DNA of 64,000 bases, taken from Gemmatimonadota bacterium. GTDB taxonomy: Bacteria > Gemmatimonadota > Gemmatimonadetes > Gemmatimonadales > GWC2-71-9. Shown here piece by piece: positions 48,114 to 53,831 of this stretch. Positions within the stretch are counted from its first letter, which is position 1. The number at the start of each line of letters is the position of its first letter. The DNA lies in contig QHVB01000036.1 in NCBI GenBank assembly GCA_003222195.1, positions 1-64,000 on the forward strand, in the 5' to 3' direction. The translations under genes and the position numbers were made by a program. The notes under the pieces are model-generated. The model saw nothing but the letters and a program-made list of their open reading frames with translations, ran no database searches and had not been told where the DNA came from.

Positions 48114-48596
48114 CCAGCGGCCCGTCTGCGTAAGGCCGGACTGCAGTCTGGTCGTATACGTGCCCGCGATCCTGTTGCCTTTCACCTCGCCGTTGAATGT
48201 CGTGAGCAGGCGCTCGCCCGTCTGGGGATCCGCGTAGGGGTCGAGGGTCCCGCTCACATGGCCGGCCTCGACGTGCACGAAACGAATCGTGAGCACATTC
48301 GGCGTTTGGCTCATCCCGCCCGCCGGCCCCGGCTGGTTCCATGGCACCAAGGCACGGCCGAACCCCTTCGGAACCATCACGACATCGCCGAACGCGGTGT
48401 CGCCGGCCGAGCGGAGCGCGAAGGTGATGCTGCCGCTGCGACCCGACTCCACGCTGCTGTATTCGCCGGCCCATTCGCCGGTCAGTGACGAGACGTCAGT
48501 CGCCGCGCCCACGACGGGCACGGCGGATCGGGACGCGCCGCACGCAGCGAGCGCGGGAAGCAGGAGCACGGTGAGAAACGTCCGAGAGCGCAACAT
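48096..48596 (-). CDS. Hypothetical lipoprotein (166 aa)
   Basis: Start ATG 48596 has GAGG five bases upstream. Lipobox in LLLPALAACGAS. The mature part is beta-rich and contains SLTGEWAGEYSSVESGRSGSITFAL and TGTLDPYADPQTGERLLTTFNGEVKGNRIAGTY-like repeats, as in small envelope or lipocalin-like proteins. The function is not recognised. It overlaps the sulP gene end, tail to tail. Confidence 0.65.
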   Translation of the reverse strand: MLRSRTFLTVLLLPALAACGASRSAVPVVGAATDVSSLTGEWAGEYSSVESGRSGSITFALRSAGDTAFGDVVMVPKGFGRALVPWNQPGPAGGMSQTPNVLTIRFVHVEAGHVSGTLDPYADPQTGERLLTTFNGEVKGNRIAGTYTTRLQSGLTQTGRWSVQRR

Positions 48597-48710
48597 GAGC
48601 ACCTCGTGAATGAGAAATGCGTCGTTGCGCGTGACGGCGGCGCGCTGTGGCAGTCAGAAATATGTCCCCGCTCTTGCAGGCTCGCGAATCGCGACCGAGC
48701 TTAGGCGGCC

Positions 48711-50075
48711 ATGTCGCTTCGCCGCCAACTCGGTGTCCCCGCTGTGACCGCGCTCGTCGTCGGGGAAGTCATTGCCATCGGCATCTTTCTCACACCCGCC
48801 GGCATGGCGCGATCGCTCGGCTCACCCTTCTGGCTACTCATCGTTTGGCTGCTCATGGGTGTCATGGCGCTCAGCGGGGCACTCTGTTACGGTGAGCTTG
48901 CGGCGCGTGCCCCCGACGCGGGTGGCGGATACGTCTACCTGCGCGAAGCCTACGGGGCGGGTGTGGCGTTCCTGTACGGCTGGAAATGCCTGCTCGTGAT
49001 GGATCCGGGCATCACGGCCGCACTCGCGGCGGGACTCGCGAGCTACGTGGGGTACGCGGTGGGCGTCTCCGGCGTAGCGCTCAAATTCATCGCGATCGGG
49101 TCTATTCTGCTCATTGCGGCGGTGAACGTCGTGGGCCTGCGGCTCGGCTCCGGCCTCATGCAGGCGCTCACGGCGCTGAAGCTCGGTGCATTGGCACTCA
49201 TCGCGGTGCTCGCATTCGTGCTGCGCGCCGGCAGCTGGTCGAACTTCATCCCCTTTGTCGCTCAGCACGCGGGCTCCGCTCCGCTCCCGGGTGCGTTCGC
49301 TCCAGCCCTTGTGGGCGCGTTTTTCGCTTTCGGTGGTTGGTGGGAAATCAGCAAGCTGGCGGGGGAAGCCCGGGATCCAGCGCGGACGCTGCCTCGAGCG
49401 CTCGCCCTTGGCGTTGCGATCGTCACCGTGATCTACATCGTCACGAGCGCAGTGTTTCTCTATCTGGTCCCGCTGGAGCGGGTGACCTCCGGCGAGACGT
49501 TCGCGGCGCAGGCAGGCGAGCTGCTGTTCGGGCCGGCGGGCGGTCGCGTCTTTGCATGGATCGTGATCGTCGCGGTGCTCGGTAGCCTGCTCGGGCTCCT
49601 CATGGCGCTGCCTCGCGTCTATTACGCGATGGCGCGCGATGGGGTGTTTTTCAAGGCGGTCGCGGAGGTCCATCCCCGCTTCAGCACGCCGGCCCGTGCG
49701 ATTGCCATCCAGGCGGCGCTCGCGTCCGTCATTGTCGCATCGGGCGCGTTCAATCAGATCATCGCCTATTTCGTGTTCGTGACGGTGCTGTTCGTCGGCC
49801 TGACCGTGACTGGCCTTTTCCGCATCAGGCGGCGGGCCCCCGCCATCTCATACAGCACCTGGGGGTATCCCCTCACGCCGGTGCTGTTTCTCGCCCTGGT
49901 CGCGGTGCTGCTTGTCTTGCTCGGCGGCCACAATCCGTTGCAGGCGGCGCTTGGCGTCGGCATCGTCGCCCTCGGCGTGCCCGTGTATCTTATCGCTTTT
50001 CGTCGACGGACCACCCTGGAGCCCGTAGGATCCGATGACCTGGATTCGCACGATTCCGCTCACCGAGGCGGATGA
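48711..50075 (+). CDS. APC-family amino acid/polyamine permease
   Basis: 454 residues and about 12 membrane helices. The N-terminal motif GVPAVTALVVGEVIAIGIFLTPAGMARSLGSPFW has the unwound GxGIF-like TM1, and ALCYGELAARAPDAGGGYVYLREAYG is the family's second signature. It probably exchanges amino acids across the inner membrane. Its last 41 bases overlap the selenoprotein gene in another frame; co-transcription with it and trxC is likely. Confidence 0.9.
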   Translation: MSLRRQLGVPAVTALVVGEVIAIGIFLTPAGMARSLGSPFWLLIVWLLMGVMALSGALCYGELAARAPDAGGGYVYLREAYGAGVAFLYGWKCLLVMDPGITAALAAGLASYVGYAVGVSGVALKFIAIGSILLIAAVNVVGLRLGSGLMQALTALKLGALALIAVLAFVLRAGSWSNFIPFVAQHAGSAPLPGAFAPALVGAFFAFGGWWEISKLAGEARDPARTLPRALALGVAIVTVIYIVTSAVFLYLVPLERVTSGETFAAQAGELLFGPAGGRVFAWIVIVAVLGSLLGLLMALPRVYYAMARDGVFFKAVAEVHPRFSTPARAIAIQAALASVIVASGAFNQIIAYFVFVTVLFVGLTVTGLFRIRRRAPAISYSTWGYPLTPVLFLALVAVLLVLLGGHNPLQAALGVGIVALGVPVYLIAFRRRTTLEPVGSDDLDSHDSAHRGG

Positions 50076-50601
50076 GAAGCTGCGCTGGGCCGTAGAAGCC
50101 CAAAAAGCGCTCTATCCGAAGGAATACGCCACTCCCGTCCACCCGACTCCAGACGGGACATCCGGCATCGTCGCGTCACACAGTCTGATTCCCGACGCGC
50201 TCTATCATGCGTTCGCGACGTTCGGTGCCTTGCTGGCACCGGAGCTGCCGCTCACGCGACGGCAGCACGAGATGATCACCACGGTCGTCTCGGTCACCAA
50301 TCGCTGTCGCTACTGAATAGAATCCCACGCAGAGTTTCTGCGTCGGATCACGCTCAATCAATCGCTCGTCGCGGCGCTGGAGGCGGACTACACCACGGCT
50401 CCGATCTCGGAACAAGAGCGCGTGATGTTGGACTATGTTGCCCAGATCACGCGGGACGCCACGCGGATCACTCCCACGCACCACCAGGAGCTGCGCCGAG
50501 TCGGGTTCGATGATCGAGCAATTCTGCAGATCACCCTGATTGCCTCGTGGTTCAACTACATCAATCGCGTCGCTGACGCCCTTGGGGTGGGGCGCGGGTG
50601 A
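50035..50601 (+). CDS. AhpD-like selenoprotein (Sec94 encoded by TGA)
   Basis: The frame from ATG 50035 reaches a TGA at 50314-50316 after ...SVTNRCRY, then continues [11 protein letters not shown] to a true stop at 50599-50601 (188 residues with the inserted one). The two parts together make a complete carboxymuconolactone-decarboxylase/AhpD-like peroxidase. The redox motif is normally C-x-Y-C-x-x-S-H; here it reads C91-R-Y-Sec94-I-E-S-H. A perfect stem-loop follows the TGA at the spacing expected for a bacterial SECIS. The C-terminal part keeps the conserved tail [28 protein letters not shown]. The selenol probably reduces peroxides. A thioredoxin-2 gene follows. Ordinary annotation would cut the protein at residue 93. 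Confidence 0.88.
50327..50343 (+). promoter_or_regulatory. Bacterial SECIS element of the selenoprotein gene
   Basis: ACGCAGA (50327-50333), loop GTT (50334-50336), TCTGCGT (50337-50343): perfect 7-bp stem within the coding sequence. The loop begins 18 bases after the TGA, inside the 16-37 nt window known for SelB-bound bacterial SECIS, with the expected G in the loop. Confidence 0.8.
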
Positions 50602-50628
50602 TTGTTCCCCGGCCGGGTATACAGCACC

Positions 50629-51066
50629 ATGCCTGACAGCGCCACGGCGACGGTTGCCTGCCCGTTTTGCGAAACACTCAACCGCGTGGACCTCTCGCGA
50701 CTCGACCAGCATCCGAAATGCGGCAATTGTGGGCGACCGATCCTGCTCGACCGGCCTCTCGCGGTCGCGGACGCCAACTTCGCGCAAATCACGACTGATA
50801 CCACGGTGCCGGTGGTGGTCGACTTCTATGCCGATTGGTGTGGCCCGTGCAAGATGATGGCCCCGCTGCTGGATGACGTGGCGCACCGCCGCGCGGGCGA
50901 GCTGCTGGTGCTGAAGCTCGACACCGATCGCAACCCCGTCACGCAACAGCGCTTTGGGGTGCGGGGGATTCCTACGCTGATAGCGTTTCGCGGCGGGAAG
51001 GAAGTGGCGCGTCGAGTCGGTGCGGTCCCGCCGGCCGAGCTTGACGCGTTCCTGAGCGGGATCTAG
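50629..51066 (+). CDS. trxC: Thioredoxin 2 (zinc-ribbon thioredoxin)
   Basis: 145 residues from ATG 50629. An N-terminal zinc ribbon has CPFC (11-14) and CGNC (31-34), as in TrxC. The thioredoxin domain carries WCGPC with Cys71 and Cys74, and the cis-Pro in GIPTLIAF. TrxC proteins are induced by oxidative stress in other bacteria. Position 28 bases after the selenoprotein stop suggests that it reduces that enzyme (inference). The stop overlaps the convergent aconitase end. Confidence 0.93.
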
Positions 51067-53831
51067 CTCTTTCCAGCGAGTTGGCGCAGCACGTACTCCA
51101 GAATCCCGCCGTGCTTGTAGTACAGCAGCTCCTGCGGCGTATCGATACGGACCAGCGCCTTGAAGCTCGTGACCTTGCCCTCATCGGACGTCGCGGTGAC
51201 GGTCAGCTCTTTCGGCATGTCACTCAGGCCAGGAATGTCGAAGCGCTCTTTCCCCGAGAGGCCGAGTGTGTCGGCATTCTGACCCGGCGCGAACTGCAGC
51301 GGCAGGATCCCCATCCCGACCAGATTCGAGCGATGGATGCGCTCGAAGCTCTCGGCGATGACGGCGCGCACGCCCAGGAGTCGCGGGCCTTTCGCCGCCC
51401 AGTCGCGTGACGATCCCGCGCCGTACTCTTTTCCCGCGAGGACAATCAGCGGTGTACCCTCAGCAGCGTACTTGAGCGACGCGTCGAAGATCGTCATCCC
51501 CTCACCATCCGGGAGGTGGACCGTGAACGGTCCTTCGGTGCCCGGAGCGAGGAGGTTCTTGAGTCGCACGTTGGCGAACGTACCGCGGACCATCACTTCG
51601 TGATTACCGCGGCGCGCGCCATAGGAGTTGAAGTCGAGCGGCTGCACGCCAAGACTGACCAGATACTGACCGGCGGGACTCGTCTTGCGAATCGATCCGG
51701 CGGGAGAGATGTGATCGGTCGTGATGCTGTCCCCCAAGAGGCAGAGCACGCGCGCGCCGCGGATGTCGCGCACCGGTGCAGGCTCGACCGGCATGCCGTC
51801 GAAGTACGGTGCTCGGCGGATGTATGTGGACGTGGGCTCCCACGCGAAGCGATCGCCTTCCGGCACGGGCAAGCCGCGCCAGCGCTCGTCACCGTCGAAC
51901 ACCTGTGCGTAGCTCTTGCGGAACATCGCCGACTTGATCGAGCGAGCGATGACCTCGGCCACTTCTTTGCTCGAAGGCCAGATGTCGCGCAGGAACACGG
52001 GCCCGTCGATGCCGATGCCGAGCGGCTCGGTGTGGAAGTCGATATCGATGCGGCCCGCGAGCGCGTACGCCACGACCAGCGGCGGCGAGGCGAGGTAGTT
52101 GGCGCGCACTTCCTGTTGAATCCGGCCCTCGAAGTTGCGATTCCCCGAGAGCACCGAGCAGACGACGAGGTCGCACTCCGCGATCGCGGTGGACACGGCC
52201 TCTGGCAGCGGCCCGGAGTTGCCAATGCACGTCGTGCAGCCATAGCCGACGAGGTGAAAGCGCAGCGTCTCGAGCGGCTTCATGAGATCCGCCAACTCGA
52301 GATAGTCCGTGACCACTTTGGAGCCGGGGGCGAGGCTCGTCTTGACCCACGGCTTCGAGCGCAGGCCGCGATCGACCGCTTTCTTGGCCATGAGCGCCGC
52401 CGCGATCATGACAGAGGGGTTTGAGGTATTGGTGCAGCTCGTGATCGCGGCGATCACCACCGAGCCGTGATGCAGCACGCAGTCCTGGTTGTCGATGCGA
52501 AGTGTAGCCTTGGACGGTTTGGCGGGAGGTGCCGCGACCGCGGCGGCTGGGTGGCCGCCTTCGCCCTCCCAGCGTCCCATGGCGTTCACCGCCGGCACCG
52601 GCGCTGGCCTCATCAGCGTCGGCAACGCCTCCGCAAACTTGCGCGGCACTTCCCCCAGTCCCACGCGATCCTGCGGCCGGCGCGGCCCCGCCATGCTGGA
52701 TTCAACGGTCGCCAGGTTCAACTCGAGCGTGTCACTGTAGACCGGCTCGGCGGCCTCGGGCGTATGGAAGAGGCCCTGCTCCTTCATGTAGGCCTCGACC
52801 AGCTGCACGTGCTCGGCCGGGCGGCCCGTGAACTCGAGATAGCGCAGGGTCTCCTGATCGACCGGGAAAATGCCGATGGTGGCGCCGTACTCGGGGGCCA
52901 TGTTCCCGATCGTCGCGCGATCGGCCAGCGGCAGCGTAGACACACCTGGGCCGAAGAACTCGACGAACTTTCCCACGACCCCTTTGGCGCGAAGCATCTG
53001 CGTAACGGTCAGTACGAGATCGGTCGCCGTCGCGCCCTCGGTGAGGCGCCCGCTCAGTCGGAATCCAACGACCTGCGGAATGAGCATCGAGACGGGCTGG
53101 CCGAGCATGGCGGCTTCGGCTTCGATGCCTCCGACGCCCCAACCCACGACGCCGAGCCCGTTGATCATCGTCGTATGAGAATCGGTCCCGACCAGTGTAT
53201 CGGGATATGCTTGGGCAGGACCGTCCGACCGTCCGACCGCCCGACCATCCGACGTAAACACCACGCGCGCGAGGTACTCGAGGTTGACCTGGTGTACGAT
53301 CCCCGTGTCGGGCGGCACGACCTTGAAGCCCGAGAAGGCTTTTTGCGCCCAGCGCAGCAACGCGTAGCGCTCACGGTTGCGCTGGAACTCGAGGTCCGCA
53401 TTGACCTGGAAGGCGCGGGGCGTGCCGAACTCGTCCACGATCACCGAGTGGTCGATCACGAGCTCGGCGGGGAGCAACGGATTCACGCGCTTCGGGTCGC
53501 CGCCCATCTGCACCATCGCGTCACGCATGGCGGCGAGATCCACGACCGCGGGGACGCCCGTGAAGTCTTGCAGCAGGACGCGCGCAGGCATGAATGCAAT
53601 TTCTTCGTCCGGCACCTTCCGGGGGTCCCAGCGCGCCAGGTTCTCGAGATCTTCGGGCCGGACGACGCGCCCATCTTCGCGGCGCAGCAGGTTTTCGAGC
53701 AGGATCTTCAGCGAGTAGGGGAGTTTGGCGATGGACAGTCCACGGCGCTCGAGCGCGTCGAGGCGGTAGATCTCGTACGCCCGCCCGCCCGCCTTCAGCG
53801 TGGCGCGGCTCCCGAAACTGTTTCCACTCAT
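51063..53831 (-). CDS. acnA: Aconitate hydratase A
   Basis: 922-residue [4Fe-4S] enzyme of the TCA cycle, converting citrate to isocitrate. Cluster ligands: [10 protein letters not shown] and [12 protein letters not shown]. The swivel domain has [18 protein letters not shown], and [35 protein letters not shown] is conserved. The stretch [15 protein letters not shown] just before it is encoded by an octamer array (53219-53253) and replaces the short acidic loop usual at this place; a Pro/Ala-rich linker near residues 405-430 is also longer than usual. Start ATG 53831 overlaps the stop of the upstream membrane protein gene. Confidence 0.97.
53219..53253. repeat. Octamer direct repeats inside acnA
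   Basis: Four GACCGTCC-type octamers in a row (53219-53250) plus a partial unit. In the protein they encode [12 protein letters not shown], a surface loop. The unit is related in style to the arrays at 36050, 40785 and 60367. Confidence 0.75.

Follow-up and report, generated by a model that had tools for sequence, protein, structure and literature searches.

An AhpD-like gene with an in-frame TGA

Positions 50035–50601 of the window (the whole stretch of DNA analysed, 64,000 nucleotides from a Gemmatimonadota bacterium) almost certainly encode a full-length peroxide-handling enzyme with selenocysteine. We are highly confident that the product is a full-length AhpD-like selenoprotein, with Sec94 inserted under the direction of a SECIS element and SelB, and that it probably works as a thiol/selenol hydroperoxide reductase, with CxxU as its centre. 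An earlier note on this DNA had proposed that codon 94 encodes Sec in an AhpD-like protein. This proposal is borne out by homology that spans the TGA, by the Cys aligned with it in homologues, by conservation of the TGA across phyla, by a hairpin frozen at synonymous sites and by the selA, selC and selD genes that the genome contains.

The gene starts with an ATG at 50035, and the joined protein begins with MTWIRT. The motif around codon 94 is N-R-C-R-Y-TGA-I-E-S-H. Re-reading of the frame 50035–50601 reproduced both the C-R-Y-TGA-I-E-S-H string and the 94 open codons after it that the note had described. It had also predicted that standard gene calling would yield a 93-residue stub, and the Table 11 ORF indeed ends at 93 residues. 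With the standard code, reading stops at codon 93, half of the protein is lost and the active site is hidden from ordinary annotation. The features of the gene are as follows.

50035..50601, + strand: gene for an AhpD-like selenoprotein, TIGR01926 peroxidase-related, 188 residues including Sec94; stop codon TGA at 50599–50601
50269..50271, + strand: codon of Glu79, at the place of Glu118 of Mycobacterium tuberculosis AhpD; invariant column, spacing as in PA0269 (PMC3141380)
50305..50307, + strand: codon of Cys91, which pairs with Sec94 in C-x-Y-U and is presumably the resolving residue; invariant column, aligned to 2PFX, 2OYO and 6K40
50314..50316, + strand: in-frame TGA, codon 94, read as Sec94; TGA conserved in homologues, Cys in PDB and fetched homologues
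50326..50328, + strand: codon of His98, the counterpart of His137 in M. tuberculosis AhpD; invariant column (PMC3141380)

Conservation of the TGA among relatives

The nearest 80 GTDB loci (L120–L199) are 73–90% identical to the window gene's product. The peptide pattern used in the search had Cys at the codon-94 site, so the search was unbiased towards TGA; a TGA was nevertheless present at codon 94 in 80/80 loci. The names of these records include Gemmatimonadetes, several groups of Acidobacteria, Latescibacterota and Pirellulales, but they are names of MAGs, of which single ones may be wrong. Matches with E values of 1e-20 or better were present in 111 of 395 Gemmatimonadota genomes, and the 133 matches in those genomes have one TGA (126 matches) or no stop (7 matches). 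All 20 Gemmatimonadota matches with at least 54% identity carry the TGA; in the phylum to which an Acidobacteria carrier belongs (396 genomes), the TGA is present in 29 of 30 matches. In the exception (L222, about 262–819), the codon is TGC, Cys91 is replaced by Thr (T-R-Y-C) and the hairpin sequence has disappeared; L222 is the sole non-TGA member of the clade that was found. Similarly, eight Cys homologues from other genomes (L202–L208 and L063) have no hairpin at the corresponding offset. A tree of 61 rows, in which L222 was not included, indicated that Sec and Cys have changed at least three times and that the window's clade is all Sec. One match (L218, G075:C105) has a TAG besides the TGA, which might reflect frame damage or a match that overruns the stop. 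No relatives were found in the viral contigs searched.

Relatives of this protein are encoded in hundreds of GTDB stretches, with Sec in nearly every member sampled. This suggests that selenium-dependent redox enzymes are common in soil Gemmatimonadota and Acidobacteriota.

The SECIS hairpin

Immediately after the TGA, the following elements were identified.

50327..50343, + strand: bacterial SECIS upper stem-loop, ACGCAGA-GTT-TCTGCGT, with a spacing of 17 nt from the UGA to the GTT loop
50322..50348, + strand: the hairpin with its predicted lower stem, 4 more pairs; minimum free energy (MFE) −14.5 kcal/mol for 50314–50350

The 7-bp stem and GTT loop had been spotted before and are located as described, the first paired base being the 11th and the loop G the 18th after the TGA. 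Published criteria for bacterial SECIS elements are a loop of 3–9 nt, an upper stem of 4–16 bp, a G in the first two loop positions, a UGA–loop spacing of 16–37 nt and an MFE of at most −7.5 kcal/mol (PMC13188914, Fig. 2). When scored in this way, as the note had recommended, the hairpin agrees with every one of them, with a 3-nt loop starting with G, 7 bp, 17 nt of spacing and an MFE of −8.2 for the 17-mer or −14.5 with its flanks. An Rfam scan of the region with E values up to 1 gave no match to a SECIS family, which carries no weight against a SECIS since the bacterial elements are too variable.

The 13 codons that follow the TGA were recoded synonymously 20,000 times. Equal fold stability was reached in 0.7% of the recodings (MFE of −14.5 vs a mean of −8.0, sd 2.7 kcal/mol), and 2.9% had a stem of at least 7 pairs. 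The single-sequence evidence for a hairpin beyond chance is thus moderate, and the case rests on comparison. In 84 orthologues, the share of the top codon is 0.96–1.00 at codons 98–103 (CAC GCA GAG TTT CTG CGT), as against 0.59 on average over 95 comparable sites (Mann–Whitney p = 0.0008 for codons 98–103 vs elsewhere, the sites not being independent). At the flanking codons 97 and 104, this share is down to 0.40 and 0.32, respectively, and hence the lower stem, unlike the upper one, is not frozen. The identical 17-mer is found in 77/84 orthologues, and the core of the hairpin is still present in matches of 54–70% identity, albeit with a different loop (L227) or stem (L225, L229) in some. As sequence comparison goes, we consider the combination of a conserved TGA and frozen hairpin codons decisive. 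A frozen SECIS, together with a rare Cys revertant devoid of the hairpin, also makes a clean natural test case for the constraint that a SECIS places on codon choice.

Selenium machinery in the genome

The genome from which the window comes (G000) is assembled in 95 contigs (3.5 Mb, 99.79% complete). It contains selA (535 bits, over the cut-off), selC (a tRNA-Sec with anticodon UCA) and selD, also over the cut-off (C17:261399–262331; L073 1201–2433). The selD gene has one in-frame TGA, in H-G-A-G-U-A-C-K, and its product, selenophosphate synthetase, is probably a selenoprotein as well. Of the four sel genes that the earlier note had proposed to look for, only selB was not found in the assembly. 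The two best hits of the selB profile in this genome are frames of 400–404 residues located by tRNA genes, as expected for EF-Tu, and there is an additional EF-G-like hit.

The likely reason why selB was not found is a gap in the assembly. In the sibling genome G008 (L115), the gene order is recO-selB-clpB; recO, which adjoins selB there, is absent from our assembly too, as is DNA matching this block. A DNA search with the block gave clp cross-hits only, and the hit on contig C85 is clpC rather than clpB. A selB gene over the cut-off is found in seven of nine siblings (G001–G003 and G005–G008), the two siblings with no such hit, G004 and G009, being 86% and 75% complete, and in 46 of the 61 relatives searched and four distant carriers. 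Thus, the strain likely has SelB.

These data bear on two other readings of the TGA. It might be a true stop or an error, the gene being a pseudogene or carrying a sequencing error in a metagenome assembly, so that only the 93-residue stub exists; the length of the Table 11 ORF and the absence of selB from the assembly would be in line with this. However, the TGA occupies the same codon in 80/80 independent loci, the protein downstream is kept at 73–90% identity and synonymous sites are frozen over the hairpin only. The conserved TGA and the conserved downstream frame refute this reading, which we regard as practically impossible. It is also very improbable that the UGA is recoded to Cys or Trp, either by a suppressor tRNA or by general reassignment of the stop codon. 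The gene itself terminates with TGA, canonical tRNA-Sec alone reads UGA among the 35 of 45 tRNA places that were typed, and the SECIS-like hairpin is kept in TGA versions only, in a genome with selA and selD. These observations argue against such recoding in spite of the Cys at this site in homologues and of the selB not found in the assembly, both of which it would accommodate.

Family, fold and active-site residues

The joined protein belongs to the TIGR01926 family, the peroxidase-related AhpD subfamily (104 bits vs a cut-off of 81.8), and to PF02627, the AhpD-like/CMD fold (46.5 bits, cut-off 23). Its comparison with Cys-containing homologues, another check suggested at the outset, aligned a Cys with codon 94 in the solved and the fetched homologues. 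In particular, the proteins of structures 2PFX, 2OYO, 3C1L, 2PRR and 6K40 align through the site, with C-x-Y-C where the gene has C-R-Y-U. They share their fold and an E...C-x-Y-C...H site with the window protein; in contrast, they have Cys in place of Sec, and their identity with it is 23–29%.

An AlphaFold model of the joined protein was built from 26 homologues. Its confidence, in blocks of ten residues, is 81–98 over most of residues 70–180, and most of the C-terminal half has pLDDT values >90; the model is poor over residues 1–60. The best PDB match of this model in Foldseek is 6K40, Deinococcus radiodurans AhpD (E 2.6e-8), which points to an all-helical CMD fold. The fold family of the Foldseek matches also includes the debrominase Bmp8 and AhpD adaptors.

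Five proton-relay residues have been given for M. tuberculosis AhpD (1GU9, 1KNC) and Pseudomonas aeruginosa PA0269 (2O4D), in a Glu-Cys-X-Cys-His arrangement (PMC3141380). In the window protein, the relay Glu, Cys, His/Tyr, Cys(Sec) and His correspond in their spacing to E79, C91, Y93, U94 and H98, and the spacing E-12-C-2-Y-1-U-4-H is the same as in PA0269 (PMC3141380), although both known proteins are distant from it in sequence. M. tuberculosis AhpD differs further in having the motif in its second repeat and a His where the window protein and PA0269 have a Tyr. None of the columns of E79, C91, Y93, position 94 and H98 varies among the 26 aligned sequences. Sec94 aligns with Cys133 of M. 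tuberculosis AhpD, the presumed peroxidatic residue of that enzyme.

Relation to known selenoproteins

AhpD-like selenoproteins had been said to be known from metagenomic surveys, and the literature does list the CxxU kind (COG2128/TIGR01926) since 2005, from the Sargasso Sea in 2005 (PMC1088965) and the GOS in 2008 (PMC2398784) and in the table of a review (PMC13188914). Like the window gene, they belong to the TIGR01926 family, have a CxxU motif and carry a SECIS-like hairpin just downstream of the UGA. As far as a comparison by description goes, they differ in origin: the published ones come from marine metagenomes, whereas the branch of the window gene is mostly found in soil and groundwater MAGs of Gemmatimonadota and Acidobacteriota. 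NCBIfam also has seleno-AhpD equivalogs, NF041238 (AhpD_rel_CFYUT) and NF053654 (GroundWater_YciW), two AhpD-related families that include Sec variants and align with the window protein over the core. It belongs to neither, scoring 54.9 bits against a cut-off of 175 and 37 bits against a cut-off of 310, respectively. In the open-licence literature on selenoproteins of Acidobacteria or Gemmatimonadota, we found no description of the soil clade, and neither Gemmatimonadota nor Acidobacteriota is named in two selenoprotein reviews. Thus, the enzyme type is already known with selenium, and the window gene is a new addition from a soil branch that is widespread and nearly always has Sec.

Neighbouring genes and proposed function

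The gene is flanked by two genes on the same strand.

48711..50075, + strand: APC-family amino acid permease, L-type-like (PF13520); its last 41 bases overlap the beginning of the selenoprotein gene
50629..51066, + strand: thioredoxin 2, TrxC-like, with a zinc ribbon and WCGPC (PF00085, PF21352, NCBIfam thioredoxin); lies directly downstream and may be the electron donor

In 48400–51400, no site resembling a promoter or terminator was found. About two dozen of the 80 GTDB loci, from both Gemmatimonadota and Acidobacteriota, have an APC permease upstream of and adjacent to the gene. The thioredoxin was rejected as a generally conserved neighbour, being adjacent only in the three nearest loci (L120–L122).

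From the name of the family, the relay residues and the adjacent thioredoxin 2, the protein looks like a selenol peroxidase with a dithiol as its reductant. In the mechanism that we propose, a ribosome reaching the UGA at 50314–50316 would meet the stem-loop 50327–50343, which would recruit SelB with Sec-tRNA(Sec), and Sec would become residue 94. In the protein, Glu79 and His98 would activate the selenol of Sec94, which would attack the peroxide; Cys91 would then form a selenenylsulfide, which a dithiol donor, perhaps the neighbouring thioredoxin 2, would reduce. Where the note had left open whether Sec94 is peroxidatic or resolving, we favour the peroxidatic role by alignment to the AhpD relay, Cys91 being the putative resolving residue. 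Peroxide is the presumed substrate by analogy, given the family name and the weak peroxidase activity of PA0269 (PMC3141380). We thus infer that a CxxU thiol/selenol hydroperoxide reductase using thioredoxin or a similar reductant is the most likely function.

A selenoprotein of the AhpD fold could instead have another job, as an AhpC-type adaptor with electrons from lipoamide, as a Bmp8-like selenol dehalogenase or in a step acting on a substrate of the permease. We deem this possible, if rather unlikely. All five AhpD proton-relay residues are kept with the same spacing, and the nearest solved structures are AhpD and peroxidase-related proteins, which argues for the hydroperoxide reductase. 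Nevertheless, Bmp8 and AhpD adaptors are members of the same fold family, and the recurrent neighbour is a permease rather than a peroxiredoxin, with the thioredoxin adjacent in three loci only, which leaves room for other roles. As a tentative and doubtful extension, the relatives might form a distinct, nearly Sec-only AhpD-like clade in soil bacteria of several phyla, whose 18-base SECIS core has stayed almost unchanged down to ~54% protein identity and whose tie to a permease would indicate a function other than generic peroxide reduction.

Other AhpD-like genes with in-frame TGA codons

In the phylum, at least four more AhpD-like subfamilies (L048–L069) have an in-frame TGA and hairpins of their own. 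Among the matches at E 1e-20, Sec forms exceed Cys forms by 126 to 7. The hairpins of other TIGR01926 or YciW-like subfamilies include ACGGAG-CGGGT-CTCCGT, CGCCGC-GGTC-GCGGCG and CCGCCTT-GGC-AAGGCGG, at a similar place, and CGACCTC-CGGGCT-GAGGTCG, which sits about 7 nt further on. Paired changes occur within such hairpins, for example CTCCGC/GCGGAG in L069 and TGCCTT/AAGGCA in L065. The genome of the window itself has a second AhpD-like gene (C18:154396–154719; L072 4397–4720, − strand), with an in-frame TGA in C-V-F-U and a TIGR01926 score over the cut-off. Its hairpin, CGCCGC-GGTC-GCGGCG, differs from that of the window gene.
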